NCBI GenBank assembly: GCA_002733105.1 | Contig: NVUI01000002.1 | Location: 148,465 to 182,899 of the forward strand | Reading direction: 5' to 3' | DNA from: Methylophaga sp. | GTDB lineage: Bacteria > Pseudomonadota > Gammaproteobacteria > Nitrosococcales > Methylophagaceae | Length of the DNA: 34,435 nucleotides | In this document: positions 9,244 to 34,435 of the stretch, piece after piece | Position numbering within the stretch: the first letter of the stretch is position 1 | How the letters are laid out: every line of letters begins with the position of its first letter | Notes under the pieces: generated by a model | Told to the model about the DNA's origin: nothing | The model's input: only the letters and a program-made list of their open reading frames with translations | Databases searched by the model: none | Program-made: the position numbers and the translations under genes

Positions 9244-9245
9244 TG

Positions 9246-10720: not shown

Positions 10721-10725
10721 AACTT

Positions 10726-11286
10726 ATGACTGATATGAACATGACTATTTATTATATTTCTCAAAAAAGACAATCTGGCGTTGTATTAATCATTAGCTTA
10801 ATTATGTTATTGCTGCTAACTATTATTGGTGTCACAGCCATGCAAGTAACTGGATTAGAAGAAAAAATGGCTGGTAACAATAAAGATATGAATGTCGCTT
10901 TTCAGGCTGCAGAAGTAAGTTTACGCGATACTGAAGCTTGGCTTGCAATCCAAGCAACTGAGCCCGAAGCAAATGCTACCGGATCAAATAGAGTCTGGAT
11001 TTTAAATAGTATGGATCCAACGGATGGTAACACCATTAACTGGTGGCAAGAACGAGATCAAGCTTGGTGGCAAGCTAATGCTGTCACGTATGGTTCAGCT
11101 TTATCTACCGTAGCAACGAGTCCCTATTCAGTGATTGAACGCAAACAATATATTTCAGACACATTAGTATTAGGCACAACTAATGTTCAGCAAGGAATCA
11201 CTTATTATCAAGTGACTTCCCGTGGAACAGGTGGCAGTGATTTATCAAAAACATTGCTGCAAAGTACAGTTATCAGGAGATATTGA
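10726..11286 (+). CDS. pilX: Type IV pilus assembly protein PilX
   Basis: GspK-like minor pilin of 186 residues. Gly18 precedes the hydrophobic helix VVLIISLIMLLLLTIIGVTA, and the +5 glutamate is missing, as is normal in the PilX/GspK group, whose members cap the fibre. The following QVTGLEEKMAGNNKDMNVAFQAAE is the PilX N-terminal family signature. Three ATGs (10726, 10735, 10741) are possible starts, none with a good ribosome site; translation is probably coupled to pilW, whose stop is 5 bp away. Confidence 0.9.
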   Translation: MTDMNMTIYYISQKRQSGVVLIISLIMLLLLTIIGVTAMQVTGLEEKMAGNNKDMNVAFQAAEVSLRDTEAWLAIQATEPEANATGSNRVWILNSMDPTDGNTINWWQERDQAWWQANAVTYGSALSTVATSPYSVIERKQYISDTLVLGTTNVQQGITYYQVTSRGTGGSDLSKTLLQSTVIRRY

Positions 11287-11287
11287 A

Positions 11288-14200
11288 ATGTTTAATTTTC
11301 ATTTCCGAGCTTTAGCTTTATCAAGTGTATTTATGGTGTTATCTACAGCACACGCAGCTAATTTAAGTTTAAGTCCAGTGCCATTATATTTGGGTGGTGC
11401 GGTTGAACCTAATATCATGTTTACAATGGATGACTCTGGTTCAATGCACTGGGAAAATATGCCTGATGATGGCTGGACATACTTTATATATCCACGAGCA
11501 AGCAATGTATATGGAACATCAAACTATAGTAATTATCTTCCTGTTTTTTCTGATATTTCATACAGTGTTCGAATAAGAAGCAGTAGTATAAATTCTGTCT
11601 ACTATAATCCAACTATTACCTACCAACCTTGGTCTACATCAACTGGAGTATCAATGGGAGATATCTCAATAACATGTGCTCCCCATAATCCAACTGATAC
11701 AGCAAAAGGTTGTAGAAATCTGACTGCATCAAATACTCAAACAGCAAATTGGGAGACTTATAATGGAGATGGGACAACCTTCCCAGGTGCTGTAACTACC
11801 GAAAGTGATGTCAGTAAAACATTCTGGCCCGCAGTTTATTATACCTACAATGGTGGGGATACTTGGACTGTTGCTAATTTTACAAAAGTCGAAATTAGAT
11901 CTACCACTGCAACATATACTACTAACGTATCACGATCTGATTGTGTTACAGCACCTATTTGTACTTATGTCGAAGAGATTCAGAATTTTGCTAACTGGTA
12001 TAGTTATTATCGTTCTCGAATACTTGCCGCTCGTGGTGGGATTGGTCGCGCATTTGGTAGACAAAGTACTAATATGCGAGTTGGCTATGCTACGATTAAT
12101 AAGGGAAATTCAACTATAGATGGTGTAAATACAGATTCTATCGTTAAGGGCGTTCGAACTTTTGATAATACCGATAGAGGTAGTTTTTTTGACCTGTTAT
12201 ACGATAGGGATATACCAACATCGGGGACTCCTCTTCGAACAGCTATCGAAGACGCAGGTAAGTACTTTGAACGCACTGATGACAAAGGCCCTTGGAGTGA
12301 AACTCCGGGGACAACAAATACAGCCGATCATTTATCATGTCGACAAAGCTATAATATTACTATGACCGATGGGTATTGGAATGGCGCCTCTCCGTCAGTT
12401 AACAACTCTGATAATACTGATGGCACAACTATCTCCGGCCCCAATGATGATGATTATAACTACACAGCAATTTCTCCCTATAGTGATGCTTGGTCTAATA
12501 CCTTAGCCGATGTGGGCATGCATTATTGGAAACGAGACCTACGAACTGATCTAGATAATGAAGTGCCAACTAACGCTCAAGATCCTGCTTTTTGGCAGCA
12601 TATGGTTAATTTTACTGTTGGGCTCGGTGTAAATGGTACTTTAGACACTACTGCTGATTTACCAGGTCTTACTGCGGGCACAACAGCATGGCCTGATCCA
12701 TCGGCTAGTAATGGTGCCAAAATTGACGATATGTGGCACACAGCTATTAATAGCAAGGGGGAATTCTTTAGTGCTTCAGATCCAGATACTTTTGCTGATT
12801 CTTTATCAGATATTTTATCAGCAATCTCTGACAGAACCTCTTCAGCTTCATCAGTAGCCTTAAACTCTGGCACAGTATCCGGTAGTAGTAAAGTTTATCA
12901 AGCTAGATTTGATAGTGGTGATTGGTCTGGCCAATTATTTGCTTATCCTGTCAACGCTGATGGAACTCTAGGTAGCCTTTTATGGGATGCAGCCAGCCTG
13001 ATACCTACCGCAAGTAGTCGTATTATTGTCACTTATGATGGCGCTGATGGACAACCCTTTGAATGGACAGATATTTCATCTTCCCAACAGACACTACTAG
13101 GTAGTGAATCAATACTAGACTACCTACGTGGCGATCAAAGCAATGAAGCAGTCAATGGTGGAACTTTTAGAAATCGCAATACACTATTGGGCGATATCAT
13201 TCATTCAAGCCCAACTTATGTCGGAACACCATCATTACAATACCCGGATGGACTCGGTACTTCCGACGTAACAAAACAATATTCTGATTTCAGAACAACA
13301 TACAATGCTAGACAACATCTAGTTTATGTTAATGCAAATGATGGCATGTTACATGCATTCAATGCCGATACTGGTGTTGAGGCTTTCGCCTATGTACCTA
13401 ACACAATAATGCACAAGCTATCAGATCTTGCCGATATTAATTACAATCATAAATATTATACAGATGCTAGCCCGACAGTGCTTGATGCCTTCTTTGGTGG
13501 TGATTGGCATACTGTTCTAATTTCTGGATTGCGTAGTGGTGGACAGGGAATTTTTGCTTTAGACGTGACCAACCCTACAACATTTAGCAGTCAATCAGCG
13601 GCAAAAGATAATGTTTTATGGGAATTTACAGATAGTGATGATCCTGACTTAGGTTACACCTTTGGCATCCCAAGTGTTGTCAAACTACAAAATGGCAAAT
13701 GGGCAGCTGTATTTAGCGGTGGCTACAATAATACCTTTGATGACGATAATGACAGTAGTACAACTGATGATAGTGTCACTGGGAATGCTGTTTTATTTAT
13801 TGTTGACATTGAAGATGGCAGTTTAATCAAAAAATTTGATACTCACGTAGGATCAGCGCAAGACCCAACGGGTAACAATAAACCAAATGGTTTATCAACA
13901 CCTTCAGTGGTTGATATTGATGGCGACTTCACTGCCGATACAATATATGCCGGTGATTTATTTGGTAACGTATGGAAATTTGATATTAGCGACCCTAATA
14001 TAGCTAATTGGAAAACGTCATATGGTACCGTGGCAAGTCCCATACCTCTTTATACAGCTTGTGCTGCATCCACATGCAATTCTACAAACCATCAGCCTAT
14101 TACAACCCAAATGCAAGTTATTCGTCATCCTTCTAGTGGCGGCTATCTGGTGCTATTCGGAACAGGGCAATATATTGAAGTCGGTGATAACTCAACAACA

Positions 14201-14851
14201 GGACAAATAACTCAAACTTATTACGCTATTTGGGATAAAGATCAAGGTAGCTTTACCGCATTTAACCGCAGCAATTTATTACAACAACAAATTCTTCAAG
14301 AACTGTCAGCATTCAGTTTTGACTTACGAGTCACATCTGATAATGCAATCTCATGGTATGATGGATCCAGCGGTCATAGAGGCTGGTATATTGATTTAGT
14401 AAACACTGAAGGTGGCAATACTAATAACTTTGGTGAACGTCAGGTCAGCAACTCTATTGTCAGAAATGGTCGCATTATATTCACTACATTATTACCATCT
14501 GATGACCCCTGTGACTTTGGTGGTTCTGGCTGGCTAATGGAATTAGATTTATACTCTGGTGCACGATTATCATTTACTCCATTTGACTTGGATAATGATG
14601 GCCTTTTTTCAACGACTGATTACGTGAATATAGGTGACATTGATGGTGATGGTGTTGATGACTACGTTCCCGTTAGCGGTAAGAAATCTAAAGTAGGCAT
14701 CATCCCGACACCAAGTATTACTAGTGAAGCTGGTGGTGCAAAAGAATTCAAATTTACTAGCGGCTCTACAGGTACCATCGAAGTCACTGTTGAAAATCCT
14801 GGGCCATCATATCAAGGTCGCCAATCATGGCGTCAGCTTGATTTTAATTAA
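11288..14851 (+). CDS. pilY1: Type IV pilus tip adhesin / biogenesis factor PilY1
   Basis: Secreted tip-associated protein of 1187 residues that promotes pilus extension and surface contact. A Sec signal peptide ends near AHA (about 23). The N-terminal half is a von Willebrand A-like domain with MIDAS motif DDSGSM (48-53). The C-terminal PilY1 beta-propeller begins around residue 560 (LNSGTVSGSSKVYQARFDSGDW), with HLVYVNANDGMLHAFNADTG and calcium-type acidic loops at 876 (DIDGDFTADTIYAGD) and 1117 (DIDGDGVDDY). An upstream ATG at 11222 lies inside pilX; I chose 11288 because AGGAGA stands 8 nt before it and the signal peptide starts there. It starts 1 nt past the pilX stop. Confidence 0.95.
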   Translation: MFNFHFRALALSSVFMVLSTAHAANLSLSPVPLYLGGAVEPNIMFTMDDSGSMHWENMPDDGWTYFIYPRASNVYGTSNYSNYLPVFSDISYSVRIRSSSINSVYYNPTITYQPWSTSTGVSMGDISITCAPHNPTDTAKGCRNLTASNTQTANWETYNGDGTTFPGAVTTESDVSKTFWPAVYYTYNGGDTWTVANFTKVEIRSTTATYTTNVSRSDCVTAPICTYVEEIQNFANWYSYYRSRILAARGGIGRAFGRQSTNMRVGYATINKGNSTIDGVNTDSIVKGVRTFDNTDRGSFFDLLYDRDIPTSGTPLRTAIEDAGKYFERTDDKGPWSETPGTTNTADHLSCRQSYNITMTDGYWNGASPSVNNSDNTDGTTISGPNDDDYNYTAISPYSDAWSNTLADVGMHYWKRDLRTDLDNEVPTNAQDPAFWQHMVNFTVGLGVNGTLDTTADLPGLTAGTTAWPDPSASNGAKIDDMWHTAINSKGEFFSASDPDTFADSLSDILSAISDRTSSASSVALNSGTVSGSSKVYQARFDSGDWSGQLFAYPVNADGTLGSLLWDAASLIPTASSRIIVTYDGADGQPFEWTDISSSQQTLLGSESILDYLRGDQSNEAVNGGTFRNRNTLLGDIIHSSPTYVGTPSLQYPDGLGTSDVTKQYSDFRTTYNARQHLVYVNANDGMLHAFNADTGVEAFAYVPNTIMHKLSDLADINYNHKYYTDASPTVLDAFFGGDWHTVLISGLRSGGQGIFALDVTNPTTFSSQSAAKDNVLWEFTDSDDPDLGYTFGIPSVVKLQNGKWAAVFSGGYNNTFDDDNDSSTTDDSVTGNAVLFIVDIEDGSLIKKFDTHVGSAQDPTGNNKPNGLSTPSVVDIDGDFTADTIYAGDLFGNVWKFDISDPNIANWKTSYGTVASPIPLYTACAASTCNSTNHQPITTQMQVIRHPSSGGYLVLFGTGQYIEVGDNSTTGQITQTYYAIWDKDQGSFTAFNRSNLLQQQILQELSAFSFDLRVTSDNAISWYDGSSGHRGWYIDLVNTEGGNTNNFGERQVSNSIVRNGRIIFTTLLPSDDPCDFGGSGWLMELDLYSGARLSFTPFDLDNDGLFSTTDYVNIGDIDGDGVDDYVPVSGKKSKVGIIPTPSITSEAGGAKEFKFTSGSTGTIEVTVENPGPSYQGRQSWRQLDFN

Positions 14852-14871
14852 CTCGTTAAGGTTTTAATATT

Positions 14872-15156
14872 ATGAAATTATTATTTTCACACTTAATCGC
14901 ATTGCTTTTTATCACCAATGCCAATGCTGCAGAACCTTATATTTATACTGGTTTAGTAAATGAACAAGCCGCTGATGCAGAGATGATTAAGATTGATCAT
15001 CAACAATATACTATTAATCTTGACACAATTGTCCATGGCCCATTTAAACGTGGAGAACTCGGGCCAATGATTGACGCGGGCCAAAGAGTTGGATTTAATC
15101 TTCAAATAAATTCTGCAGAACTATCACGTATTTCAGAAATATGGATATTAGAATAA
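14872..15156 (+). CDS. Small secreted protein in the pilus operon (PilY2-like position)
   Basis: 94 residues with a clear signal peptide (LLFSHLIALLFITNANA, cut near 19-20). The mature part, about 75 residues, contains YIYTGLVNEQAADAEMIKIDHQQY and ends ISEIWILE; it looks like a single small beta-rich domain. It occupies the place of pilY2, between pilY1 and pilE, but I cannot confirm homology by eye. An AAGG ribosome site lies about 10 nt upstream, and the gene is within 21 bp of its neighbours. Confidence 0.7.
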   Translation: MKLLFSHLIALLFITNANAAEPYIYTGLVNEQAADAEMIKIDHQQYTINLDTIVHGPFKRGELGPMIDAGQRVGFNLQINSAELSRISEIWILE

Positions 15157-15173
15157 GTTAAGGATCCTAAATA

Positions 15174-15566
15174 ATGGTACCTCAAAAACAAAAAATATCT
15201 GGTTTTACATTAATAGAACTCCTGATTGCTGTGGCTATTGTGGCTATTCTTGTAGCGATAGCTTTGCCAAGTTATCAAGATAGTGTACGTAAAGCTAACC
15301 GGGGTGATGCTCAGGGTAAATTGCTAGAAAATATGAATTTTATGGAACGGGTTTTTACGGAATCTAACACTTACGTTCTCGGTGCATCTCTAGCTTTACC
15401 CCATACAAGTGCTAAAAACTACAATTTAGGCTTTTCTGCTGGACCGGCAGCATCTACATATACCTTACAGGCGGCACCAAGTGGAGATCAAATGAATGAT
15501 CCTTGCGAAACGCTGACTCTTTCAAATACAGGGGCTAAAGGAGCTGCAACTGGCGGTTGCTGGTAA
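15174..15566 (+). CDS. pilE: Type IV pilin PilE
   Basis: Minor pilin of the PilE type, 130 residues. Prepilin cleavage at Gly10/Phe11 (SGFTLIELLIAVAIVAILVA) with Glu15 at +5, then the conserved ALPSYQDSVRKANRGDAQG. Cys111 and Cys129 bracket a C-terminal D-region. The DPCETLTLSNTGAKGAA pattern is typical of minor PilE rather than the major subunit. Start supported by AAGGA. Last gene of the pilus run; its stop is only 5 bp from the convergent pgpA stop, and no terminator hairpin is visible between them. Confidence 0.92.
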   Translation: MVPQKQKISGFTLIELLIAVAIVAILVAIALPSYQDSVRKANRGDAQGKLLENMNFMERVFTESNTYVLGASLALPHTSAKNYNLGFSAGPAASTYTLQAAPSGDQMNDPCETLTLSNTGAKGAATGGCW

Positions 15567-19063: not shown

Positions 19064-19543
19064 TCACCGACGACGATATAGTGGTTCAGGCTTTAAAACG
19101 GTAGCTTGATAACTTTCACTAAAGTCATCAAAGGCAGACATCACCTCTGTTATATTACCTATATTAGCCATCTCAAAGCTATTGATCCCGCACTGTGTCA
19201 TGTAAAACAGCTGATCATATAGTATATCGCCTTGTGCTCTGATCTCACCTTCGTAACCATAGCGATCACGTAACAGTCTTGCAAATGAATAACATCGACC
19301 ATCAACAAAAACAGGGAAAATAAGCACAATCAAAGAAAAACTCGCTAAATCCGGGATAATTTCTTCTAAAGGATCACTACCACTTAAGCGTAAACCCAAT
19401 CCACCGTTATGCTTAACTAACGTTTCATGTTCAGCTTGCCAACGTGTTATCGAGACAGTCACATCACCGACAACTAATTCTGCTTCATCATCTAAATGCA
19501 GCCAATTATCTTCGACAATTTGACGATCTTTAATTATCTGCAT
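19064..19543 (-). CDS. DUF934 protein, partner of sulfite reductase
   Basis: 159-residue protein of the DUF934 family, almost always encoded directly after a ferredoxin-type sulfite/nitrite reductase. The core is LPDLASFSLIVLIFPVFVDGRCYSFARLLRDRYG-like, seen here as FPVFVDGRCYSFARLLRDRY and GEIRAQGDILYDQLFYMTQCG. Function is not established; it may help reductase assembly or electron supply. A GTG at 19549 opens the frame, but AAGGAG stands 7 nt before the ATG at 19543, which I chose. It overlaps cysI by 14 nt. Confidence 0.9.
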   Translation of the reverse strand: MQIIKDRQIVEDNWLHLDDEAELVVGDVTVSITRWQAEHETLVKHNGGLGLRLSGSDPLEEIIPDLASFSLIVLIFPVFVDGRCYSFARLLRDRYGYEGEIRAQGDILYDQLFYMTQCGINSFEMANIGNITEVMSAFDDFSESYQATVLKPEPLYRRR

Positions 19544-21182
19544 AAACACGCTCCTTAAATGGATCGATACCCACCCGACGTACGGTAGCTAAGAAGGCTT
19601 CATCATCCTGTCGACATTCTTTGAAAACATCTAGCAAGGTAGCGACTGTATTAACCACTTGATCCTTTGGGATGGCGCGGCCTAAACGTAGCCCTAAAGA
19701 AGCATCTGCTTCTGAGCTGCCTCCCAAGGTAAATTGATACCATTCCTCACCTTTCTTATCGACACCAAGAATACCAATATGACCAACACTTTGGTGTGCA
19801 CAACCATTCATACATCCGGACATCTTAATTTTGATATCCCCTAGGTCATACAGGTAATCCAAATCATCAAACCGTTCATTAATTTCTTTAGCTAATGGAA
19901 TTGATGTTGCATTAGCTAGACTACAAAAGTCTAAACCAGGGCAGCAAATCATATCTGTCAAGGTATTAATATTTGCCGTTGCCAAATTATCGGCTTCTAA
20001 GTGAAGCCATAAGGCATATAAATCACCCTGCTTCACATCAGTTAATACCAAATTTTGATCGTGAGTAGACCGTACCTCACCCAAACTAAATTCATCAGCT
20101 AAGTCAGCGATAATATCTAATTGCTCCGCTGACACGTCACCCGGAGGGCTTTGCGGTGACTTAAGTGAAATATAAGCTACTTTATAACCTGTAATTTTAT
20201 GATCAACGGTATTCTGTTTCACCCATCGGGAGAAAGTGGCATCTTCTACCTGCATTTGATCAAAACTTTTATCACTGACTGCTGCTAAGTCATAATCTGG
20301 TTCAGTAAAGCACTGTTTGACCCGATCAATTTCTTTTTCATCTAATTTAAGTTGCTCACGGATTTGCACCCATTCTGCTTCAACCAATTCACGGATATGG
20401 TCAATACCATGCTCACGAACTGTAATTTTAATCCGTGCTTTATATTTATTATCACGGCGACCTAAACGATTATAAACACGTAATATAGCTTCTAAATAAG
20501 ACAGTAAATCTTTTTTCTCAAGAAAAGGTCTAATCTGTTGACCAATAATTGGAGTACGGCCTAATCCACCACCGACTAACACTTCAAAACCAATTTCACC
20601 TTCGTGATTTTTCACTAGATGCAAACCAATATCATGTAGCTTGGTAGCAGCACGATCGTCATGATTACCAATCACTGCAATTTTAAATTTGCGCGGTAAA
20701 TAAGCAAACTCAGGATGAAATGTTGACCACTGACGGATAATCTCACACCAAGGACGTGGGTCTTCAATTTCACTGGCATTTACCCCCGCTAATTGATCGG
20801 AAGTTGTGTTGCGAATACAGTTGCCGCTACTTTGAATAGCATGCATTTGTACCGAAGCTAATTCAGCAAGAATATCAGGGACGGTCTCCAGCGCTGGCCA
20901 ATTCAATTGAAAATTTTGGCGGGTAGTGAAATGTACGTAGCCCTTATCATAACGACGAGAAATATCAGCAATTTTACGCACTTGCTTTGATGACATAAGC
21001 CCATAAGGAATAGCAACTCGCAACATTGGGGCATGGATCTGAATATACAGACCATTCATTAACCGTAAAGGACGAAACTGATCTGCGGTCAGTTCACCGG
21101 CTAAAAAACGACGTGTTTGATCGCGATATTGAGTGACGCGCTGATCAATCATTGTCTGATCATATTGATCGTATTGGTACAT
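19530..21182 (-). CDS. cysI: Assimilatory sulfite reductase hemoprotein (ferredoxin type)
   Basis: Siroheme and 4Fe-4S enzyme reducing sulfite to sulfide by six electrons. 550 residues with two ferrodoxin-like half-domains (LRLMNGLYIQIHAPMLRVAIP; VHFTTRQNFQLNW). Cluster cysteines are Cys414 and Cys420 (CPGLDFC) and Cys457 and Cys461 (CMNGC). The alternative name is nitrite/sulfite reductase, but DUF934 downstream and nearby cysN, cysD and cysH favour sulfite. No cysJ flavoprotein is present, so the electron donor is probably ferredoxin. Its upstream gap has a TATAAT (21215-21220, minus) and a box shared with the tauE promoter region. Confidence 0.93.
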   Translation of the reverse strand: MYQYDQYDQTMIDQRVTQYRDQTRRFLAGELTADQFRPLRLMNGLYIQIHAPMLRVAIPYGLMSSKQVRKIADISRRYDKGYVHFTTRQNFQLNWPALETVPDILAELASVQMHAIQSSGNCIRNTTSDQLAGVNASEIEDPRPWCEIIRQWSTFHPEFAYLPRKFKIAVIGNHDDRAATKLHDIGLHLVKNHEGEIGFEVLVGGGLGRTPIIGQQIRPFLEKKDLLSYLEAILRVYNRLGRRDNKYKARIKITVREHGIDHIRELVEAEWVQIREQLKLDEKEIDRVKQCFTEPDYDLAAVSDKSFDQMQVEDATFSRWVKQNTVDHKITGYKVAYISLKSPQSPPGDVSAEQLDIIADLADEFSLGEVRSTHDQNLVLTDVKQGDLYALWLHLEADNLATANINTLTDMICCPGLDFCSLANATSIPLAKEINERFDDLDYLYDLGDIKIKMSGCMNGCAHQSVGHIGILGVDKKGEEWYQFTLGGSSEADASLGLRLGRAIPKDQVVNTVATLLDVFKECRQDDEAFLATVRRVGIDPFKERVYADN

Positions 21183-24930: not shown

Positions 24931-26376
24931 TTATTTCAGCAGGCTATCCAAATCTTTAATATCCAATGCTGGAAAATGTTGTTTGATCAATGCCGTTAAT
25001 TCAGCTTCAAATTTTAATAATTGTTCGGAACTTATCTCTAATTGATCCGATGGTCCTGACACTGCCTCAGTGATCATGCCTGCACCAATAGTGACATTGC
25101 TCAATCGATCAATAATGATAAATGCACCCGTGCTACGGTTACGTTTATAACGATCAAATACCACCGGTTTATTTAGTGAAAATTCACATTGGCCAATTTC
25201 ATTTAGCTGCAATTCACTAGCCTCATTTTCAGCCAAGGTATTCACATCAATTTGGCTATCGATCTGAGTCAAAACACCCGTACTATCGCTGACACCCACT
25301 TTAAAATTGTATTGCTTACCACTTATTAATGGTTTATCCGTCATCCAAACTACTGTTGCTTTAAAATGGCTGGCGACATGTGGTAAGTGAGCACGATGGA
25401 CAATCATATCACCACGGCTAATATCAATTTCAGTTTCTAGTGTGACTGTCAGTGCTTCACCGGGAATAGCTTCATCTAAATCACCATCATAGGTTACTAA
25501 TGCTTTAACTCGGCTTTCTGCACCCGATGGCAACACAGTGATCTCATCGCCAGGACGCAAAACACCCGATGCTACGGTGCCACAATAACCACGGAAATTC
25601 AGGTTAGGACGATTAACATATTGCACAGGGAAACGAACATCATCGATATTAGTATCGGATGAAATTTCAATATTTTCCAACAAATACATTAAAGTTTCAC
25701 CTTGATACCAAGGCATATTCTCACTTTTGTTGACCACGTTATCACCCACTAATGCAGACAACGGTACAAAGTGCACATCATCCATACCCAGTTCTTTGGC
25801 AAAGGCACTGTATTCGTCACGAATATCGTTATAAACCTGCTCGCTATAATCTTTGATATCCATTTTATTAATAGCAACAACAATGTGTTTAATACCTAAC
25901 AAGGATGCAATATAACTATGACGGCGAGTCTGAGTTTGCACACCATAACGTGCATCAATCAAGATCACTGCTAACTGACAATTTGATGCCCCTGTTGCCA
26001 TATTACGGGTGTATTGCTCATGGCCAGGTGTATCGGCAATGATGAACTTACGTTTGGTGGTTGAGAAATAACGATACGCCACATCAATAGTAATGCCTTG
26101 CTCACGTTCAGCTTGTAAACCATCCACCAGCAAGGCTAAATCAACCGCTTCACCCGTTGTACCGGATTTAACACTATCTTTAGTGATGGCCTCTAATTGA
26201 TCTTCATAGATCATTTTTGAATCGTAAAGCAGACGACCGATTAAAGTACTTTTGCCATCATCGACATTACCGCAGGTCAGAAAACGTAAAATCTCTTTAT
26301 TTTCATGTTGTTTTAAATAGGCATCAATATCTGTGGCAATAAGATTGTCTGCTTGATAATTATTATCTGTGCTCAT
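24931..26376 (-). CDS. cysN: Sulfate adenylyltransferase subunit 1 (GTPase)
   Basis: GTP-hydrolysing subunit of ATP sulfurylase, which drives APS formation by CysD. EF-Tu-like GTPase with G1 GNVDDGKST (36-44), G3 DTPGHEQ (about 115-121) and G4 NKMD (about 169-172), then EF-Tu domain II. At 481 residues it is a stand-alone CysN without the fused CysC (APS kinase) seen in many bacteria. A 119-bp gap, not the usual overlap, separates it from cysD, and a 7-bp hairpin stands 1 nt before its start. Confidence 0.96.
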
Positions 26377-26377
26377 T

Positions 26378-26395
26378 ATGAATACCTATATTCAT
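26378..26395 (-). promoter_or_regulatory. Hairpin around the cysN ribosome-binding site
   Basis: ATGAATA (26378-26384) and TATTCAT (26389-26395) form a perfect 7-bp stem with a 4-nt loop. On the minus strand the TAGG that could serve as ribosome site lies in the loop, one base before the stem that abuts the ATG. It may modulate cysN translation. Confidence 0.4.
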
Positions 26396-26495
26396 TAGAA
26401 TGATTGACCGAAATCAAGGCGGATGTATTTCGAGAGTCGGAGAAAGATATCCAACGATAAAATCGGACAATAAGGCAATTAATATGGCCGTTCAT

Positions 26496-27395
26496 TTAGA
26501 AATAGCCCTCTTGTTTTTTCTTCTCCATCGAACCCGCTTCATCGTGATCAATAGCACGACCTTGTCGTTCTGATGTCGTGGTTAATAACATTTCTTGAAT
26601 GATCTCTGGCAATGTTTCAGCAGTTGATTCCACTGCACCCGTCAATGGATAACAACCCAATGTTCTAAAACGAACTTTTTCCATTTTGGGCACTTCACCC
26701 GGCTCTAATCGCATACGATCATCATCCACCATGATCTTCAAACCATTGCGCTCAACAATAGGTCTTTCGGCTGCGTAATAAAGCGGTACGATAGGGATGC
26801 CTTCTAAATGTATATATTGCCAAATATCCAGCTCTGTCCAGTTAGATAAAGGAAAGACTCGTATGCTCTCACCCTTATTCACCTTACTGTTATAAATATT
26901 CCATAACTCTGGTCGCTGCTGCTTCGGATCCCAGCGATGATTTTTATCACGGAATGAATATACCCGCTCTTTTGCTCGTGATTTTTCTTCATCACGACGG
27001 GCACCACCAAAGGCAGCATCAAACCCATATTTATTCAACGCCTGTTTCAGACCATCCGTTTTCATAATATCAGTGTATCGGGCATGATCAAAAGGATTAA
27101 TGCCATCGTCTATACCTTGTTGATTACTATGGACTAATAGCTCCAAACCTAACTCTTTCACCCGTTGATCACGAAAGGCAATCATTTCCTTAAATTTCCA
27201 TGTCGTATCAACATGAAGTAATGGAAACGGTGGTTTGCCAGGCGCAAAGGCTTTCATCGCTAGATGCAACATCACCGCTGAATCTTTACCTACCGAATAC
27301 AACATAACGGGATTGTCAAACTCCGCGGCTACTTCACGCATGATATGGATACTTTCCGCTTCCAGTTGTTGTAAATGTGTCAGTTTTTTAGTCAT
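26496..27395 (-). CDS. cysD: Sulfate adenylyltransferase subunit 2
   Basis: Catalytic subunit of ATP sulfurylase (adenosine 5'-phosphosulfate formation from ATP and sulfate). PP-loop [12 protein letters not shown] (34-45), [16 protein letters not shown] (about 81-96), [20 protein letters not shown] (about 144-163) and the C-terminal [12 protein letters not shown] are all typical. 299 residues, normal. It is 48 bp downstream of cysH on the same strand. Confidence 0.97.
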
Positions 27396-27443
27396 ATTAT
27401 TTCTCTATCATTTAAACTAGGGCAACACTCTAAAAAGACCATT

Positions 27444-28145
27444 TTAAGGTTGGCCTTTCACATGAAGCCCACATTCTTTTGACTCTGGATTTTCCCACCA
27501 CCAGCGACCAGCGCGTATATCTTCTCCTGCTGTAATCGCTCGAGTACAGGGTGCGCAGCCAATACTGGCATAACCTTCATCATGTAATTTGTTATAAGGC
27601 ACATCAAATGCACGGATATAAGCCCAAACATCACCATTTGACCAATCCGTTAATGGGCTAAATTTTTGCAAGCCATGATCATCATCATATTCTGAAACAG
27701 GCAATTCACTACGCGTTACAGCTTGCGAACGACGCATCCCCGTCAACCATGCTTTTTTATCAGACAAAGCACGTTTTAATGGTTTAACTTTACGCATGCC
27801 ACAGCATTGTTTGCGTAATTCCACACTGTCGTAAAAGGCATTGGGGCCTTGTTGGGTAATATAAGCTTCAACATCTGCTGCATTGGGAAAATAGACTTTA
27901 ACCTCTCGATGATAATGTGCTTTAGCCTGTTGCATTACCTCATAAGTTTCTTTTGGCAATCGCCCGGTATCGAGTGTAAAAATTTCTATCTCTGGCGTAA
28001 ATTTACAAATTAAATCCATCAACACCATATCTTCAGCACCATAACTTGATGCTAAAGTGGCAGGATTATAATCTGCTCCAATTTCAGTTAAAACCTGTTT
28101 TACGGCTTCGATTTTATCTACTAACTTTTGTTTCATATCTGTCAT
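27444..28145 (-). CDS. cysH: Adenylyl-sulfate (APS) reductase, 4Fe-4S type, assimilatory
   Basis: Reduces APS to sulfite and AMP with thioredoxin or glutathione as donor. 233 residues. The nucleotide loop is SSYGAEDM (33-40), and TLDTGRLPKETYEVM (about 58-72) binds the sulfate end. The cluster cysteines Cys114-Cys115 (KQCCGMRKV) and Cys197/Cys200 (GCAPCTRA) are present, and the catalytic Cys225 lies in ECGLHV. PAPS reductases such as E. coli CysH lack the first two pairs, so this is the APS-using form. That fits the absence of an APS kinase beside cysDN. The start at 28145 has a purine-rich stretch upstream. Confidence 0.94.
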   Translation of the reverse strand: MTDMKQKLVDKIEAVKQVLTEIGADYNPATLASSYGAEDMVLMDLICKFTPEIEIFTLDTGRLPKETYEVMQQAKAHYHREVKVYFPNAADVEAYITQQGPNAFYDSVELRKQCCGMRKVKPLKRALSDKKAWLTGMRRSQAVTRSELPVSEYDDDHGLQKFSPLTDWSNGDVWAYIRAFDVPYNKLHDEGYASIGCAPCTRAITAGEDIRAGRWWWENPESKECGLHVKGQP

Positions 28146-28194: not shown

Positions 28195-28995
28195 TTACAA
28201 CAGACATTTTATACCCACCAATAACAATAATACTGCTAATAAATGTCGCATCACCTTGTCAGAAATTTTTACGCCTAAGTGGCTACCAATATAAATACCG
28301 GGTAAGGATCCCATCACCAAAAATGATAATAAACTCCAATCTACAGTGCCCACGGTTGCATGTCCTAGCCCAGCAATAGCTGTAAGTGGTACAGCATGAG
28401 CAATATCTGTTGCAACAATTTCTACCCCTTTCATATGAGGATAAAGGAATAATAGTGCCACCGCACCAAGTGCACCTGCTCCCACCGATGACAGCGTCAC
28501 CATCACACCGAGAAAGGCGCCTGTAGCGACTGTGGCCACAGCTTTATGTTGTTCATCCTGACGTACTCGATACAGTGCACTAACGATTGGATGACCCGCA
28601 CGAGCTTGTAATAATCCGCCAATAAAACCTTTCAATAACAACGCACTCGAGGTCAGGATCAGTGCCACACCCAAGGCTGAAGTAATTAAATCAGCATGCT
28701 GTCCATTCTCAACGCCCGTCGTACTTAATATCCACAGGGTTAAAACTGTGGTTGAAATACTCCCCATTGCTAAGCGTTTGACGACGGTCCAATCCACCAC
28801 GCCGTGACGCCAATAAGCCCAGACTCCACCGGCTTTTGTTATTGCCGCAAATAATAAATCTGTACCAACCGCTATCGCCGGCTGAACTGCAAATACAAAA
28901 ATCAATATAGGCGTCATTAATGATCCGCCACCCACACCAGTCATGCCGATCATGATGCCAACAAAGAGTCCAGCTAGTGTATATCCCCATTCCAT
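28195..28995 (-). CDS. TauE/SafE-family sulfite exporter-like membrane protein
   Basis: Inner-membrane transporter of 266 residues with about eight hydrophobic helices. The opening LAGLFVGIMIGMTGVGGGSLMTPILIF-like segment (about 8-34; the signature is MTGVGGGSLMTP) and its weaker repeat TLSSVGAGALGAVALLFLYP are the TauE/SafE family marks. Members move sulfite, sulfonate derivatives or organic sulfur compounds; in this operon it could export toxic sulfite made by CysH or import sulfate. First gene of the tauE-cysH-cysD-cysN run, 49 bp from cysH. Confidence 0.9.
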   Translation of the reverse strand: MEWGYTLAGLFVGIMIGMTGVGGGSLMTPILIFVFAVQPAIAVGTDLLFAAITKAGGVWAYWRHGVVDWTVVKRLAMGSISTTVLTLWILSTTGVENGQHADLITSALGVALILTSSALLLKGFIGGLLQARAGHPIVSALYRVRQDEQHKAVATVATGAFLGVMVTLSSVGAGALGAVALLFLYPHMKGVEIVATDIAHAVPLTAIAGLGHATVGTVDWSLLSFLVMGSLPGIYIGSHLGVKISDKVMRHLLAVLLLLVGIKCLL

Positions 28996-29113: not shown

Positions 29114-29153
29114 TCCCTGTATGATTTAGATATATTTGAATCGGTATTTTGCT

Positions 29154-30080
29154 ATGCAGTTACATCAATTAAAGTATGTTCGTGAAATTACCCTTCGAGG
29201 TTTTAATGTTTCTGCAACGGCCAAAGCTTTAAACGTATCCCAACCTAATGTTAGTAATCAGGTGCAACAACTAGAGGAAGAACTCGGCCTAAAAATTTTT
29301 GAGCGTCATGGTAAACGCCTAACCAATTTAACCGACATCGGTAAGTCTATTGTTGAAATAGCCAATAGTGTATTAATCAACATAGATAATATTGGTCAAC
29401 TGGTAGCAGATAGCCACAATGATCAAATAGGCACCTTATCAATTGGCACAACACATACTCAAGCTCGATATGCTTTACCTCCCGCCATTAAAAACTTTTC
29501 TGAGCACTACCCAAATGTTCATTTAAATATGGTTCAAGGAACACCGTTAGAATTGGCCGAATTAGCCGCCATGGGGAAAATTGATATTGCCATTGCGACA
29601 GAAGCTATCGGACAACATTTATCCTTGTTTTCATTCCCTTGCTATGACTGGAATCGTACCATTGTCGTACCAGAAAACCATCCCCTACTCTCTGAGAAAA
29701 AACTTACCCTAGAAGCAATTGCTCAGTACCCTATTCTGACTTATATCCCCGATATCACTGGTCGTGCTCTTCAAGATAAAGCATTTAAAGATCATAATCT
29801 TAAGCCTAATATTATATTTACCGCTACAGATGCTGATGTAATAAAAACCTATGTAGAATTAGAAATTGAATTAGGCGTAGGTATCATCGCCAGTATGGCG
29901 TTTAACCCAACTAAAGATGCACCACTAATAGGCATAGATGCAAGTCACTTATTCTCACCAAGCACGACTGTACTTGGTTTCAGACGAAATAGTTATTTAC
30001 GTAAGTATACCTATGCTTTTATAGAATTTTTTGCCTCGCATCTGACTCGAAAAGTCATTGATGAGAGTATGAAGGCTTGA
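29154..30080 (+). CDS. cysB: LysR-family regulator, CysB/Cbl-like
   Basis: 308-residue transcription factor. The N-terminal winged helix-turn-helix (QLHQLKYVREITLRGFNVSA, KALNVSQPNVSNQVQQLEEE, about 2-45) and the effector domain (SIGTTHTQARYALPPAIKNF at about 100, THTQARY being a CysB signature) place it in the CysB group, which senses O-acetylserine/N-acetylserine. An in-frame TTG at 29136 extends it by six residues; the ATG at 29154 matches family starts. It is divergent from tauE-cysHDN, the usual place for a local activator. Confidence 0.9.
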   Translation: MQLHQLKYVREITLRGFNVSATAKALNVSQPNVSNQVQQLEEELGLKIFERHGKRLTNLTDIGKSIVEIANSVLINIDNIGQLVADSHNDQIGTLSIGTTHTQARYALPPAIKNFSEHYPNVHLNMVQGTPLELAELAAMGKIDIAIATEAIGQHLSLFSFPCYDWNRTIVVPENHPLLSEKKLTLEAIAQYPILTYIPDITGRALQDKAFKDHNLKPNIIFTATDADVIKTYVELEIELGVGIIASMAFNPTKDAPLIGIDASHLFSPSTTVLGFRRNSYLRKYTYAFIEFFASHLTRKVIDESMKA

Positions 30081-30654: not shown

Positions 30655-31185
30655 ATGTCACAGGAAAATGTGAAAGCAGCCATGATGAAACTCATCGAAG
30701 GCATTCAAGCAAATCCAGCATCATCACAAGTTTTTTTTAAAGCCGACACTGAGTGGGTGGAAGACGTCCGTTGTACAGCACAAGTCCGTGATTTTCCAGT
30801 CATCACAATTGATGAACCTCCAGTATTAGGTGGTCAAGATGCCGGTGTAAATCCTGTTGAATTAGTACTCGTCGCGCTAGGAACATGCCAAGAGATTATG
30901 TATTCGGCCTATGCCTCAGTTATGGACATCCCACTTGATTCAGTAAAGGTCAGCGTTAAAGGTGATCTTGACCTAAAAGGCCTGTTTGGACTTGATGAAT
31001 CTGTACCTGCTGGTTACACACAAGTTACATTCCAAACCACCATTGAGAGCTCAGCTGACGACGCAACCTTAGTGAAATTGGTAGAAACGGCTGAGAGTCA
31101 TTGTCCTGTGTTGGATATTTTCACTCGAGCTGTTCCCGTCAATGGTAGCGTTACTATTAATGGTAAAGATATGAATAGTATATAA
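30655..31185 (+). CDS. OsmC/Ohr-family peroxiredoxin-like protein
   Basis: 176-residue cytoplasmic thiol peroxidase, reducing organic hydroperoxides in known members. The two reactive cysteines fit the family: Cys78 in VALGTCQEIM and Cys150 in ESHCPVLD (the HCP motif). The GGQDAGVNPVELVLVALGTC stretch is typical. A third cysteine, Cys40, is extra. It is longer at the N-terminus than Ohr. Its neighbours are sulfur genes; it may act on hydrogen peroxide, a product of methanethiol oxidation, or on organic peroxides. That link is inference. Good GAGGA site before the ATG. Confidence 0.9.
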   Translation: MSQENVKAAMMKLIEGIQANPASSQVFFKADTEWVEDVRCTAQVRDFPVITIDEPPVLGGQDAGVNPVELVLVALGTCQEIMYSAYASVMDIPLDSVKVSVKGDLDLKGLFGLDESVPAGYTQVTFQTTIESSADDATLVKLVETAESHCPVLDIFTRAVPVNGSVTINGKDMNSI

Positions 31186-31208
31186 ACAAAAATCTTTTAA
31201 CTGAAAGA

Positions 31209-31331
31209 CCACTATTTAGAAAGAGAATTAGCTCGATAGTGGCATTAGGTGCAACCCAAGCTACCACTGTTCTGAGAGATAAGATTAAAGAACGATCTAG
31301 ACAGATCTGTTAGTGTTGAGTTGCACCTAAT
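31209..31331. repeat. Nested inverted repeats between osmC and the MBL-fold gene
   Basis: A 7-bp pair CCACTAT/ATAGTGG (31209-31215, 31236-31242) is followed at once by a 12-bp perfect pair ATTAGGTGCAAC/GTTGCACCTAAT (31244-31255, 31320-31331). Inside are CACT/AGTG, GTTCT/AGAAC (31269-31273, 31289-31293) and the palindrome ACAGATCTGT (31301-31310). The RNA could fold into a branched structure of 88 nt. There is no T-run. It could be an RNA element, a processing site or a small palindromic mobile remnant. Confidence 0.65.
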
Positions 31332-31403
31332 ATCTTGAGCGATATATATTATCAAACTTATAGTTCAGAATCTCTCACCTATTTTTCACAAAAACAGCAT
31401 GTC

Positions 31404-32333
31404 ATGACAACAACAAAACAATTTTATTGGTCTGTCTGTTTATATCTACTACTATCGATCCATTTTGTTCATGCAAGTTATCTCGAAGTCACTTTATTAG
31501 GAACAGGCACCCCTAGGCCTGATATTTCACGCTTCGGTCCAGCTACAGTTATAAAAGCTAAAGGACGCTATTTTGTATTTGATAGTGGACGCGGTATCAC
31601 GATCCGCTTACAGCAAGCAGGGATCCCGCTATCACAAATAGACCAAGTATTTATAACCCATTTACACTCTGATCATCTCTCCGGCTTGCCAGATCTATGG
31701 CTAACTAGCTGGATATGGCAACGACAAAACAAGTTACACATTTATGGTCCTACTGGCATAGAGAACATGACCGCTCATCTTCAGCTTGCATACCAGGCTG
31801 ATGTTGCCCATCGTATAGAAAACTCGGGCTTAAATCCGTTAACCGCACAAATAAACACCACGGAAATATCAGAAGGTGTTATCTACAATAAAGATGGTGT
31901 ACAGATAACAGCATTTTTTGTGAACCACGGTTTAGTTAAGCCTGCTTTTGGTTATCGTCTGGATAGCGGAGATCAGTCAGTAGTCATTTCCGGCGATACC
32001 AGCTATTCAGAAAATTTAATCAAATTTGCTAAAGATACCGATCTCTTGATCCATGAAATTGCAGCAGCAGATGAAACTTTACTGCAGAACAACCGCCGTC
32101 TACAAAAGATTATTCGTTACCACACCAGCCCAGCTCAAGCAGCAATGATATTCAACAAAGTACAACCTAAGGCAGCAATTTATACCCATTTACTGTTATT
32201 TGGCATTAGTGAACAACAGCTATTAGAAAAAACGAAATCACTTTATCAGGGTACTGTTTATATTGGTAATGACTTACTAAAAATTGGCATTGGCAAAAAT
32301 ATTACTGTTTATCCCTCTGTCCCATCCCAATAA
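31404..32333 (+). CDS. Secreted metallo-beta-lactamase-fold hydrolase (type III sulfatase/RNase Z-like)
   Basis: 309 residues. A signal peptide (hydrophobic FYWSVCLYLLLSIHFVHA, cut near 24) sends it to the periplasm. The fold opens VTLLGTGTPRPDISRFGPAT, and the zinc-binding motif is HLHSDH (86-91) after FIT; SGDTSYSENL (Asp bridging) and IYTHLLLFG complete the site. The opening GTGTPRP and the DSGRGITIRL run resemble the AtsA arylsulfatase subgroup rather than tRNA-processing RNase Z, which has no signal peptide. The frame is open from a TTG at 31335; the ATG at 31404 starts the signal peptide. Substrate unknown, perhaps a sulfate ester. Confidence 0.82.
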   Translation: MTTTKQFYWSVCLYLLLSIHFVHASYLEVTLLGTGTPRPDISRFGPATVIKAKGRYFVFDSGRGITIRLQQAGIPLSQIDQVFITHLHSDHLSGLPDLWLTSWIWQRQNKLHIYGPTGIENMTAHLQLAYQADVAHRIENSGLNPLTAQINTTEISEGVIYNKDGVQITAFFVNHGLVKPAFGYRLDSGDQSVVISGDTSYSENLIKFAKDTDLLIHEIAAADETLLQNNRRLQKIIRYHTSPAQAAMIFNKVQPKAAIYTHLLLFGISEQQLLEKTKSLYQGTVYIGNDLLKIGIGKNITVYPSVPSQ

Positions 32334-32654
32334 TTTACCGGCCACCACCTGCTTGTCTATTTAACTAAAATAAAACGGCTTACACAGTATAAATCCAACT
32401 ATTCCAGCACTAAACCTTAAAATACGTACATCAGTGTCCATAAATTAACAACAGCTAAATCGCTCTATTTTTGGATGTAACAACACAACTAAAAGTGGTT
32501 AATAACAAATTATGGTTGCAATCCATATCATTCTTGATTATAACTATATAACTATACGGTATACATGTTAAGGATATGACACACATGTTTACCTATTGAA
32601 AAGATAAAAACTATTATAAATTCAGTCAATTACATTCTCAGAGAGAGGAATAGT
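32334..32654. other. 321-bp gene-free region before fadL
   Basis: Nothing coding is visible. The left half is unremarkable AT-rich DNA with no clear terminator for the MBL gene. The right half holds the fadL promoter block (32516-32567) and an untranslated leader of about 100 bases ending in a strong GAGAGAGG ribosome site. Confidence 0.6.
32516..32567 (+). promoter_or_regulatory. Candidate fadL-mtoX promoter, same block as osmC
   Basis: TTGCAA (32516-32521), 17-bp spacer, TATAAC (32539-32544). A perfect palindrome TATAC-G-GTATA (32553-32563) sits at the same offset (37 bases from the -35) as the imperfect one at osmC. It also contains CTATATA, reminiscent of the box at cysI and tauE. Confidence 0.6.
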
Positions 32655-33866
32655 ATGAAACAAAATGTTAAGAAATTTAACCGCATTATCAAGTTGTCCG
32701 CTTTTGGCATAACAGGTTTATTGATATCTACATCTTCAATAGCAACCACAATTGGTTCTGACTTCAATCTAAAATTCAACCCAACTTCGGCTGCAATGGG
32801 TGGTGTTGGTTATGTTGCACCACAAGATGCCGTGGCTTCTGTCTACGGTAACGCAGCAACACTAACACAATTAAAAGGTGATACCGATTTTACCTTCGGT
32901 GCTACGTATGCAAATGTAGACAATACGATTGAAACAGGTGGTGTTAAGGGCGACATCGAGTTTGAACATTATCTCCTACCTACAATTGCAGTGCGCCAAC
33001 GTATAACCGATAACTTGGTAATTGGTGGTGGTTTACAACTCGTTTCTGGCCTGGGTTCTGACTACAGAAGCTTACCTCTAGGTGATCCGACAGTCACATT
33101 TATGACCTTTGGGGCGAATATGGCTGCAGGTTATGCGCTTACACCCAAAACCTCTATTGGTGTTTCAATGACACTGGCATACAGCATACTTGAGATTGGT
33201 CTTGTTTCTAACACCGGTATACAAGAAACATTTGGTGTTCGAGGTGGACTAGGTATTACCCATGATATTGGCCCGGTGATGCTGTCTGCTAACTACAACT
33301 CTGAACTAAATCTGGATTTTGACAATGTAGTTCAGTCTGGACCCGATCAATATCAAAGTTTGACTCTTGAACAGCCACAAGAATTCATTATTGGTGTGGC
33401 AAGTACACCTGCAATGTGGACTGATCTTTTAGTCGAAGCCAATGTTATCTATAAAAACTGGGATAATTCTGAGTTATATAAAGATATTTGGAAAGATACC
33501 TACACATTCCAATTAGGTGGCCAGTATGCGCTTAACAATAAAATAAAACTAAGAGCGGGCTATAGTTACACCACTGACTTATTGAAAAAGAACGGCTTAG
33601 GTAACTCCGTAGGTAAATTGGACAGCCTGAATATCGGCGGTGCAGCTGTACCTATTAATCCAGCGCTAATTCAGTTTATTCAATCTACATTAGCTGACCC
33701 ATTCTGGAATAACAATATTACCGCTGGTGTGGGTTATGCATTTACTGATTCCATCAGTGCAGATTTACATGTCGGCTACGGTTGGGGTTCAGACCAAACT
33801 ATCGGCGCCAACAAAGTAGAAACTTCGGTTTATACTGCTGGTGGTGGCGTGACTTGGGCATTTTAA
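32655..33866 (+). CDS. OmpP1/FadL/TodX-family outer-membrane transporter
   Basis: Outer-membrane beta-barrel of 403 residues for hydrophobic compounds. Signal peptide 1-30 (cut near SSIA/TT). The mature N-terminus GSDFNLKFNPTSAAMGGVGYVAPQDAVASVYGNAATL corresponds to the FadL hatch, with the NPTSAAMGGVG and YGNAATLT family signatures, and the barrel closes with terminal Trp-Ala-Phe. It lies 72 bp before the methanethiol oxidase gene, probably in one transcript (a weak TTCGA/TCGAA hairpin at 33892-33909 between). Substrate could be a volatile thiol, sulfide or an alkane. Confidence 0.92.
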   Translation: MKQNVKKFNRIIKLSAFGITGLLISTSSIATTIGSDFNLKFNPTSAAMGGVGYVAPQDAVASVYGNAATLTQLKGDTDFTFGATYANVDNTIETGGVKGDIEFEHYLLPTIAVRQRITDNLVIGGGLQLVSGLGSDYRSLPLGDPTVTFMTFGANMAAGYALTPKTSIGVSMTLAYSILEIGLVSNTGIQETFGVRGGLGITHDIGPVMLSANYNSELNLDFDNVVQSGPDQYQSLTLEQPQEFIIGVASTPAMWTDLLVEANVIYKNWDNSELYKDIWKDTYTFQLGGQYALNNKIKLRAGYSYTTDLLKKNGLGNSVGKLDSLNIGGAAVPINPALIQFIQSTLADPFWNNNITAGVGYAFTDSISADLHVGYGWGSDQTIGANKVETSVYTAGGGVTWAF

Positions 33867-33938
33867 TTAGTTCAGCTTTAAGAAACTTAGATTCGATCAA
33901 ACAGTCGAAAAATTGTAATCAAAATATAGGATAGTAAT

Positions 33939-34435
33939 ATGAATATAAAAACTAAATTACGAAAAACTATGAAAGTAATGTTGCCAATGGCATTGGTCTC
34001 TGCATCAGTAATGATGGCTAACCCAGTGATAGCAGATGAGACCTGCATGTCACCGTATATGGCCAAAATTGTCGGTCAAGAAGATTTTGTTTATGTATGG
34101 ACTCTAGGTATGGAAGGCCTAGGTGATGGCCAAGATAAAATGGTGACCGTCGCTGTTAATCCGGACTCTGCCGATTATGGTAAGGTTATTTATACTGAAT
34201 CTGTAGGTGGGCGTAATGAAGCGCATCACTCTGGTTTTACCGATGATCGTAAATACCTTTGGGCAGGCGCATTAGATTCAAATAAAATCTTTATCTTTGA
34301 TGTTCACACTAACCCAGCAAAAGCGACATTAGTTAAAACTATTGATGACTTTGTAAGTAAAAGTGGTGGTGTAGTTGGTCCTCATACTACTTATGCATTA
34401 CCAGGTAGAATGATTGTCACAGGTTTATCTAACAA
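33939..34435 (+). CDS. mtoX: Methanethiol oxidase / selenium-binding protein SBP56 family, N-terminal part (runs off the right edge)
   Basis: Copper-dependent enzyme in characterised bacteria, oxidising methanethiol to formaldehyde, sulfide and hydrogen peroxide. 165 residues are visible. A signal peptide (KVMLPMALVSASVMMANPVIA, cut near 32) puts it in the periplasm, unlike the cytosolic animal SBP56. The mature start is DETCMSPYMAKIVGQEDFVY, followed by GGRNEAHHSGFTDDRKYLWAGALDSN-type sequence; NEAHHSG is shared with animal SBP56 and likely supplies metal-binding histidines. GPHTTYALPG near 148-157 is typical of the bacterial group. AGGA stands 6 nt before the ATG. The rest of the gene is outside the window, so catalytic completeness is unchecked. 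Confidence 0.9.
   Translation, partial: MNIKTKLRKTMKVMLPMALVSASVMMANPVIADETCMSPYMAKIVGQEDFVYVWTLGMEGLGDGQDKMVTVAVNPDSADYGKVIYTESVGGRNEAHHSGFTDDRKYLWAGALDSNKIFIFDVHTNPAKATLVKTIDDFVSKSGGVVGPHTTYALPGRMIVTGLSN

Follow-up and report, generated by a model that had tools for sequence, protein, structure and literature searches.

A candidate uptake and stress module in front of the methanethiol oxidase operon of a Methylophaga species

Why do genes for an OsmC-family protein, an exported-looking hydrolase and a FadL-type outer-membrane channel stand directly in front of a methanethiol oxidase gene? The question is raised by a stretch of 34,435 nucleotides from Methylophaga sp. (the window; bases 148465-182899 of the 243,461-base contig NVUI01000002.1, from a genome of 2.06 Mb that is 82.5% complete), which ends inside the oxidase gene, mtoX. 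We conclude that the locus is probably the 5' half of a Methylophagaceae-type operon leading from methanethiol to sulfite, with a module for uptake and stress in front of it. The genes lie on the plus strand in the order osmC, MBL (metallo-β-lactamase), fadL and mtoX, the last being cut by the window edge:

30655-31185, plus strand: osmC, OsmC-family protein of 176 residues (Pfam OsmC 67 bits, cut-off 27.5)
31335-32333, plus strand: MBL-fold hydrolase, the open reading frame opening with TTG and the likely start being the ATG at 31404 (Lactamase_B_2 73.1, cut-off 27)
32655-33866, plus strand: fadL, FadL/TodX-type outer-membrane channel of 403 residues (Pfam Toluene_X 47.1, cut-off 29.7)
33939-34435 (window edge), plus strand: 5' part of mtoX (Pfam SBP56 154.4, cut-off 34)

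The original prediction, made from the letters of the window, had named these four genes and their families, and the Pfam and NCBIfam scores confirm them. The gaps between them are 218 bases from osmC to the MBL gene, 321 from there to fadL and 72 from fadL to mtoX, and inside the window only the spacing between fadL and mtoX looks operon-tight. A near-twin of the locus (L055; metagenome-assembled genome JABSQO010000018.1, Piscirickettsiaceae bacterium, bin DT-Methylophagaceae-3) has an identical gene order, with proteins 91% (OsmC), 87% (MBL), 87% (FadL) and 96% (MtoX) identical to those of the window, which speaks against an assembly artefact.

MtoX and the cluster beyond the window edge

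The extended locus that runs past the right edge of the window (L002, on which all downstream coordinates are given) completes mtoX and adds a row of genes, of which those from the SCO1-MauG fusion to sulP occupy L002:7811-14877, with mtoX, the fusion gene, tlpA, pdo, sqr and sulP in one direction:

L002:6404-7789, plus strand: complete mtoX, ending 889 bases beyond the window (NF052453, MthilOxMtoX, 731.4 bits, cut-off 650)
L002:7811-9823, 21 bases after mtoX: SCO1-MauG fusion of 670 residues, with SCO1/SenC and di-heme MauG domains
1 base after the fusion gene: TlpA/ResA-like thioredoxin
26 bases after tlpA: ferredoxin-like protein of 63 residues, read by eye
26 bases after the ferredoxin-like gene: MBL-rhodanese protein of the persulfide dioxygenase (PDO) type
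35 bases after the PDO-rhodanese gene: SQR-like protein, closest to type III sulfide:quinone reductase (SQR)
172 bases after the SQR-like gene: SulP
L002:14933-15550, 55 bases after sulP and ending the cluster: small S-adenosylmethionine (SAM)-dependent methyltransferase

In studied relatives, MtoX splits methanethiol into formaldehyde and a sulfur species, sulfide in the older account and sulfane sulfur in the newer. The full protein exceeds the NCBIfam equivalog cut-off for methanethiol oxidase MtoX (bacterial SBP56) and, judged by its sequence, the enzyme of the locus is methanethiol oxidase MtoX. This score, together with the mto cluster beyond the edge, bears out the organosulfur oxidation locus that had been predicted. 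Residues H96, H97, H149 and H432 are invariant in all 11 aligned sequences and agree with the copper ligands that Eyice et al. proposed for Hyphomicrobium MtoX (H89, H90, H140 and H412; PMC5739008), the match being drawn from their spacing with the Hyphomicrobium sequence lying outside the alignment. The cysteine of a T-C-x-S-P-Y-M motif is also invariant (11/11), at the position reported to be essential in the Ruegeria methanethiol oxidase.

The original prediction had held that the arrangement differs from known mtoX loci, in which SCO1- and MauG-like genes are the partners, and had proposed extending the contig to see whether such genes follow. They do, as the fusion 21 bases past mtoX, and the supposed contrast was an effect of the window edge since the known M. 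thiooxydans mto cluster lies just beyond it; the idea that partners past the edge would make the locus unusual was rejected on the same extension. Both mto clusters 1 and 2 of M. thiooxydans DMS010, which we take to be our genome G045, have the order mtoX, SCO1-MauG fusion, TlpA-like, PDO, SqrB and SulP (Kroeber and Schaefer 2019, PMC6548844), and both mtoX genes with their sco1-mauG genes are induced there on dimethylsulfide (DMS). A LysR gene is nearby in that species as well, and homologues of OsmC, MBL and FadL lie beside cluster 1 but divergent from it (L030), whereas the window has them immediately ahead of mtoX and in its orientation; the cluster gene list in the available text of that paper is without them. 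Compared with the same clusters, the cluster of the window adds the ferredoxin-like gene and the SAM methyltransferase. The mtoX-SCO1-mauG operon of Hyphomicrobium sp. VS (Eyice et al., PMC5739008) shares MtoX and the SCO1/MauG maturation genes, while here SCO1 and MauG are fused, a fusion that Eyice et al. also name, and SQR, PDO and SulP are attached. The cluster itself is known, and it is the upstream accessory module that we found undescribed: the open-access literature yielded no description of an OsmC-FadL-mtoX link, and nothing in it was found to join methanethiol oxidase with FadL.

The textbook metal motif of SCO1/SenC proteins is C-x3-C-P. The SCO1 domain of the fusion (SCO1/SenC score 46.6, cut-off 22.8) carries C-x5-C-P (CNDINGCP) and not this motif. 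Amongst 67 mtoX loci with a SCO1-MauG match C-x5-C-P is found in 62 and C-x3-C-P in none, while five of these loci (L057-L061) are MauG-type only. The di-heme domain exceeds the Pfam CCP_MauG cut-off, and it has the MauG-type domain in common with both MauG and PDB 6e1c, but it is fused to SCO1 and falls below both curated models (MauG 213.5 against 443.85; MbnH-family 241.9 against 362.85). Its closest solved sequence is 6e1c ('Di-heme enzyme', E 6.8e-42), which we take to be MbnH, with MauG proper at 1.9e-19. A tryptophan tryptophylquinone (TTQ) site in MtoX is less certain because the di-heme domain is nearer to 6e1c than to MauG and because the SCO1 motif is C-x5-C-P; a tryptophan modification of the MbnH type may be the alternative.

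We name PDO and SQR by their domain make-up and by a gene order that matches M. thiooxydans, since the NCBIfam scores are under their cut-offs (persulfide dioxygenase 118.5 against 625; SQR 235.6 against 525). A relative of the SAM methyltransferase was seen only in the twin genome among 80 named mtoX loci, which are the best 80 of 516 and often lie on contigs that end early. We took the OxRed matches in L066 and L125 to be unrelated, and likewise the weak SQR matches (22-24% identity) that appear in part of the 80 loci.

Linkage of the upstream genes to mtoX

Two genome samples were searched, one of 143 relatives and one of 369 genomes sampled evenly across the class Gammaproteobacteria, the two overlapping in part (e.g. 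G000, G011, G013 and G105). Among the relatives, with thresholds of E up to 1e-10 for FadL, below 1e-40 for OsmC and below 1e-50 for MBL, mtoX is present in 17 genomes. FadL was found in 12 genomes, 11 of which have mtoX, OsmC in 10, all with mtoX, and MBL, counted in this sample only, in 16, of which 13 have mtoX; the linkage in relatives on which the original prediction had staked itself has therefore survived. The class sample has 33 genomes with mtoX, 12 with FadL (10 with mtoX) and 15 with OsmC (13 with mtoX). G182 was scored as mtoX-negative here, its MtoX being a contig-end fragment under the listing threshold, and the FadL figure becomes 11 of 12 if it is counted; the other FadL genome without mtoX is G396, whose protein is outside the clade of 18 channels described below. 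The FadL genomes of the class sample represent nine families, in seven of which both genes occur together in a genome. OsmC and FadL are non-random neighbours of mtoX.

The physical linkage takes more than one form. In seven congeners (G002, G003, G011, G012, G013, G019 and G023) no gene separates MBL from the mtoX that follows it; FadL sits between the two in the window genome and its twin. OsmC comes ahead of MBL in the window, its twin and the congeners G003, G011, G012 and G013. Divergent from mtoX in cluster 1 of M. thiooxydans (L030) are LysR, OsmC, dihydrolipoamide-dehydrogenase-like, MBL and FadL genes, with FadL ~5 kb from mtoX. Beyond Methylophagaceae, OsmC stands next to FadL in G145, G215, G268, G307, G394 and Sedimenticola selenatireducens, and FadL is 12 kb from mtoX in G145, 6 kb in G307 and ~3 kb in Sedimenticola; FadL and mtoX are on different contigs in G215, G268 and G182, where the two may still be linked. 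Ahead of the OsmC-FadL pair in G145, G215, G307 and Sedimenticola lie genes for a response regulator and for a histidine kinase with a PAS domain.

The same seven congeners suggest another explanation, in which the channel and OsmC would serve inorganic or polymeric sulfur, such as elemental sulfur or polysulfide, and the linkage to mtoX would mark a general sulfur-oxidation island. SoxB lies just before OsmC/MBL/mtoX or MBL/mtoX in all seven (the G011 copy scoring 859.6 bits against 550), a further sox row with FadL is found upstream where the contig permits, and the substrates of SQR and PDO are sulfide and persulfide. In G011, G013, G023 and G019 the FadL-type gene shares the contig of mtoX and precedes it by 10-12 kb, and the window genome has SoxB and a sox cluster on another contig. 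We nevertheless think this explanation unlikely, as the partnership with mtoX is tighter for FadL (11 of 12) than for SoxB, the general sulfur-oxidiser marker taken as a control (36 relatives, 11 with mtoX), and the nearest solved channels, CymD, TbuX and TodX, are channels for monoaromatic compounds. The sox-linked FadL homologue of G019 is broken into three pieces (L158:4338-5595).

That osmC, MBL and fadL are ordinary stress and lipid-uptake neighbours which happen to precede a standard mto operon would fit the wide gaps among them, their absence from most mtoX loci, the single genus that dominates the positives among the relatives, and the adjacent MBL and OsmC relatives of G007, which has no mtoX. 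We regard it as improbable given that the co-occurrence extends over several families in the 369 genomes, that most genomes tested have a separate canonical FadL and that the physical linkage recurs in Methylophagaceae, G145, G307 and Sedimenticola.

Several points weigh against a module that belongs to the operon. The one-sided Fisher values (class sample, FadL 4.8e-10 and OsmC 1.8e-13; relatives, SoxB 2.7e-4) ignore shared ancestry and come from overlapping samples. This FadL is missing from 23 of the 33 mtoX genomes of the class sample, and G017, G089, G100, G105, G116 and G123 are mtoX genomes in which it was not found. It is 38 kb from mtoX in G394, far from it in G197, and on a different contig in G405 and for one G012 copy. 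The flanks of the 80 mtoX loci contain FadL in 2, OsmC in 7 and MBL in 7, counted over loci of which 37 have 9.5 kb on both sides and 43 are shorter on at least one. The link between MBL and mtoX is confined to Methylophagaceae and to G105 (7.5 kb) and G100 (2.8 kb), and in those two, where MBL is beside lepA, it may have another cause. A promoter scan gave 44 sites against 43.5 in shuffled sequence, which is no excess. Finally, a peroxidase role for OsmC is doubtful if MtoX makes no H2O2, and three other methanethiol oxidases gave sulfane sulfur and no H2O2 (PMC10936201), which leaves the predicted clearance of peroxide by OsmC unsupported.

The upstream proteins and a proposed route to sulfite

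In the pathway that we favour, a hydrophobic volatile (methanethiol, DMS or dimethyldisulfide) would pass through the outer membrane by way of the FadL channel, SCO1-MauG and TlpA would mature the copper and tryptophan-derived site of MtoX, and SQR and PDO would convert the sulfur to sulfite. The sulfite may be exported by SulP or TauE or may be oxidised further, the genome having a sox cluster. OsmC, in the cytoplasm, would reduce hydroperoxides or persulfides that arise as formaldehyde, peroxide and sulfur species accumulate, and the LysR protein would regulate the locus. The last of these and the TauE-type protein are encoded upstream of osmC:

28195-28995, minus strand: TauE/SafE sulfite-exporter-like membrane protein, divergent neighbour (Pfam TauE 154.8 bits, cut-off 32.6)
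29136-30080, plus strand: LysR-type regulator (Pfam HTH_1 and LysR_substrate)

The TauE/SafE-like protein is a possible sulfite outlet, placed in the pathway by its position only. The LysR-type protein is a possible regulator of the locus; it is 66-67% identical to the LysR proteins near mtoX in cluster 2 of M. thiooxydans (L032) and in the congener G036 (L033), and 42% identical to the one adjoining cluster 1 (L030).

For the FadL protein, uptake of the substrate is plausible from its sequence relationships. The best matches with solved structures are CymD, TbuX and TodX (E 9.1e-9 to 1.3e-6), whose linkage is to aromatic catabolism, in contrast to methanethiol oxidation here; in a six-frame search with Toluene_X the two pieces of the window protein scored 25.4 and 21.9, below the 29.7 cut-off. 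Proteins of the FadL family are 14-stranded barrels with an N-terminal hatch. The model of the window protein, built from 3 sequences with a mean pLDDT (predicted local distance difference test) of only 49.6, shows two short helices at the N terminus and ~14 long strands. A tree was built from 26 rows, a subset of the homologues found. Its clade of 18 channels (support 100/99) includes that of the window and is separate from six canonical FadL proteins of the same genus and family; neither group takes in the G396 protein or a second protein of G007. Among eight genomes surveyed for FadL-family genes a canonical FadL is present in six (E 1.5e-118 to 5.2e-113); that of G045 is split across two contigs, and G002 has the divergent type only. 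In M. thiooxydans the transcript of a FadL-type porin, MDMS009_906, is strongly up on DMS (PMC6548844). The locus-tag ranges suggest that this gene may lie on the contig of mto cluster 2, but an end fragment of the canonical FadL is on that contig as well.

Hydroperoxidases of the OsmC/Ohr type act through a reactive pair of cysteines. The window protein has the OsmC domain and both cysteines, C78 and C150; across 20 aligned homologues C40 and C78 are each kept in 19 and C150 in all 20. The curated peroxidase subfamily model TIGR03563 (SACOL1771 peroxiredoxin) is missed by far (32.5 against 166.15) and NF041052 (OsmC-related (seleno)protein) narrowly (93.5 against 95), so the 'thiol peroxidase' of the original prediction is not established and we label it an OsmC-family protein, with no named peroxidase. 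The older account with H2O2 is kept in PMC6548844, where catalase and a peroxiredoxin are induced on DMS. An OsmC is the most upregulated gene of sulfur-limited Pelagibacter in exponential phase (PMC5069961), which hints at a role for OsmC proteins in the metabolism of organosulfur compounds. Our preferred guess is that OsmC reduces hydroperoxides or persulfides, for example an adduct of formaldehyde and peroxide.

The role of the MBL protein in the pathway is a guess. It had been predicted to be a secreted zinc hydrolase: the hydrolase part stands, with an MBL fold and a complete set of metal ligands (HLHSDH, H175, D198 and H262, invariant in 8/8 aligned sequences), whereas 'secreted' depends on an N-terminus that looks like a signal peptide by eye. 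The model (pLDDT 77.3) matches the folds of an arylsulfatase, PNGM-1 and RNase Z alike, which lends no support to the predicted ester hydrolysis. The best match, arylsulfatase 8gyg of Pseudoalteromonas atlantica (E 6.5e-18, 23% identity), could together with the ligand set mean that the exported enzyme is a sulfatase or thioester hydrolase supplying sulfur compounds to the pathway; with PNGM-1 and RNase Z scoring nearly equally, identity low to all of them and close linkage to mtoX outside Methylophagaceae seen only in G100 and G105, we hold this to be improbable as well. RNase Z itself was rejected on its curated score (165.8 against 363) and on the export-like N-terminus. SoxH, which is an MBL of another subtype, was considered as an identity for the protein and set aside. 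Taken as a whole the original model was half right, in that the linkage stands, while its unusual maturation partners do not and the roles given to OsmC and MBL are unsupported. In G007, a congener without mtoX, MBL and OsmC homologues 51 and 36% identical to those of the window lie side by side (L045:9316-10824), and the two may therefore have a function apart from methanethiol oxidation.

An AlkB-like island near mtoX and other features

Methanethiol and DMS are major marine volatile sulfur compounds. For their use by Methylophaga, the mtoX-associated channel and OsmC provide specific candidate genes, as does an island with an AlkB-like hydroxylase that lies near mtoX in M. thiooxydans and relatives. 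The islands, not all parts being present in each, are:

L157:3497-16194, AlkB-like island
L044:1-13848, AlkB-like island
L042:1307-15234, AlkB-like island
L158:8388-9608, AlkB-like island of G019
L141:9019-19696, AlkB-like island

The hydroxylase belongs to Pfam FA_desaturase, with solved relatives 8sbb (E 1e-28) and 8f6t (E 7.7e-27), alkane monooxygenase, and its gene occurs in 5 of 17 mapped loci (G016, G045 C25, G036, G019 and G182), all from genomes with mtoX (G182 by its fragment). In G045 and G036 the order is hydroxylase, globin, glutathione S-transferase (GST), Fer2-FAD-NAD (BenC/MmoC-like) reductase, FadL, globin, SCO4226-like protein, NMO-like flavoprotein, a protein of 398 residues, hydrolase, acyl-CoA-dehydrogenase-like protein, histidine kinase and response regulator. 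The window's twin G016 has the same row without FadL on another contig, and the congener rows L047, L052 and L161 have reductase, FadL, globin and the 398-residue protein on contigs that end before the place of the hydroxylase. The unannotated 398-residue protein is found in 12 of the 143 genomes, all 12 with mtoX; no AlkB-like gene was present in the 20 kb around it in G105 and G100. Neither this protein nor the reductase was found in the window's genome, a negative that counts for little at 82.5% completeness. The hydroxylase of M. thiooxydans DMS010 is 7.7 kb from the mtoX of cluster 2, and the contig of cluster 1 has no homologue of the hydroxylase or the reductase, which speaks against MDMS009_226 and MDMS009_61 as the hydroxylase and reductase if the tags run by contig.

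The hydroxylase, reductase and FadL of the island presumably resemble XylM, XylA and XylN. We propose, tentatively and as a minority possibility, that FadL is the outer-membrane gate of a full DMS pathway whose first enzyme would be a membrane di-iron monooxygenase of the AlkB/XylM type. The AlkB-like hydroxylase and its reductase would hydroxylate a methyl group of DMS to give formaldehyde and methanethiol, the methanethiol feeding MtoX. According to PMC6548844 the first DMS enzyme of M. thiooxydans is unidentified and the expected methyltransferase has no candidate gene; the same paper cites work that failed to detect DMS monooxygenase activity in this species, which counts against the AlkB-like candidate. 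Among the matches listed in the open-access literature for alkane hydroxylase, alkB and Methylophagaceae, none included methanethiol oxidase.

Downstream of the mto cluster a riboswitch search found one element, a thiamine pyrophosphate (TPP) riboswitch at L002:16127-16235, before what reads by eye as a TonB-dependent receptor gene. Within the window, cysN, cysD, cysH and sulfite/nitrite-reductase-like genes were read by eye at 24931-28145 and 19530-21182, beside the sulfur-oxidation locus. Also by eye, a row of genes at 8728-15566 resembles minor pilins of type IV pili, together with a gene for a large PilY1-like protein. In three methanotroph loci a TetR-like regulator, again read by eye, precedes mtoX (L079:9054-9650, L096:8933-9535 and L131:355-951), and genes of the same size occupy this place in other loci.

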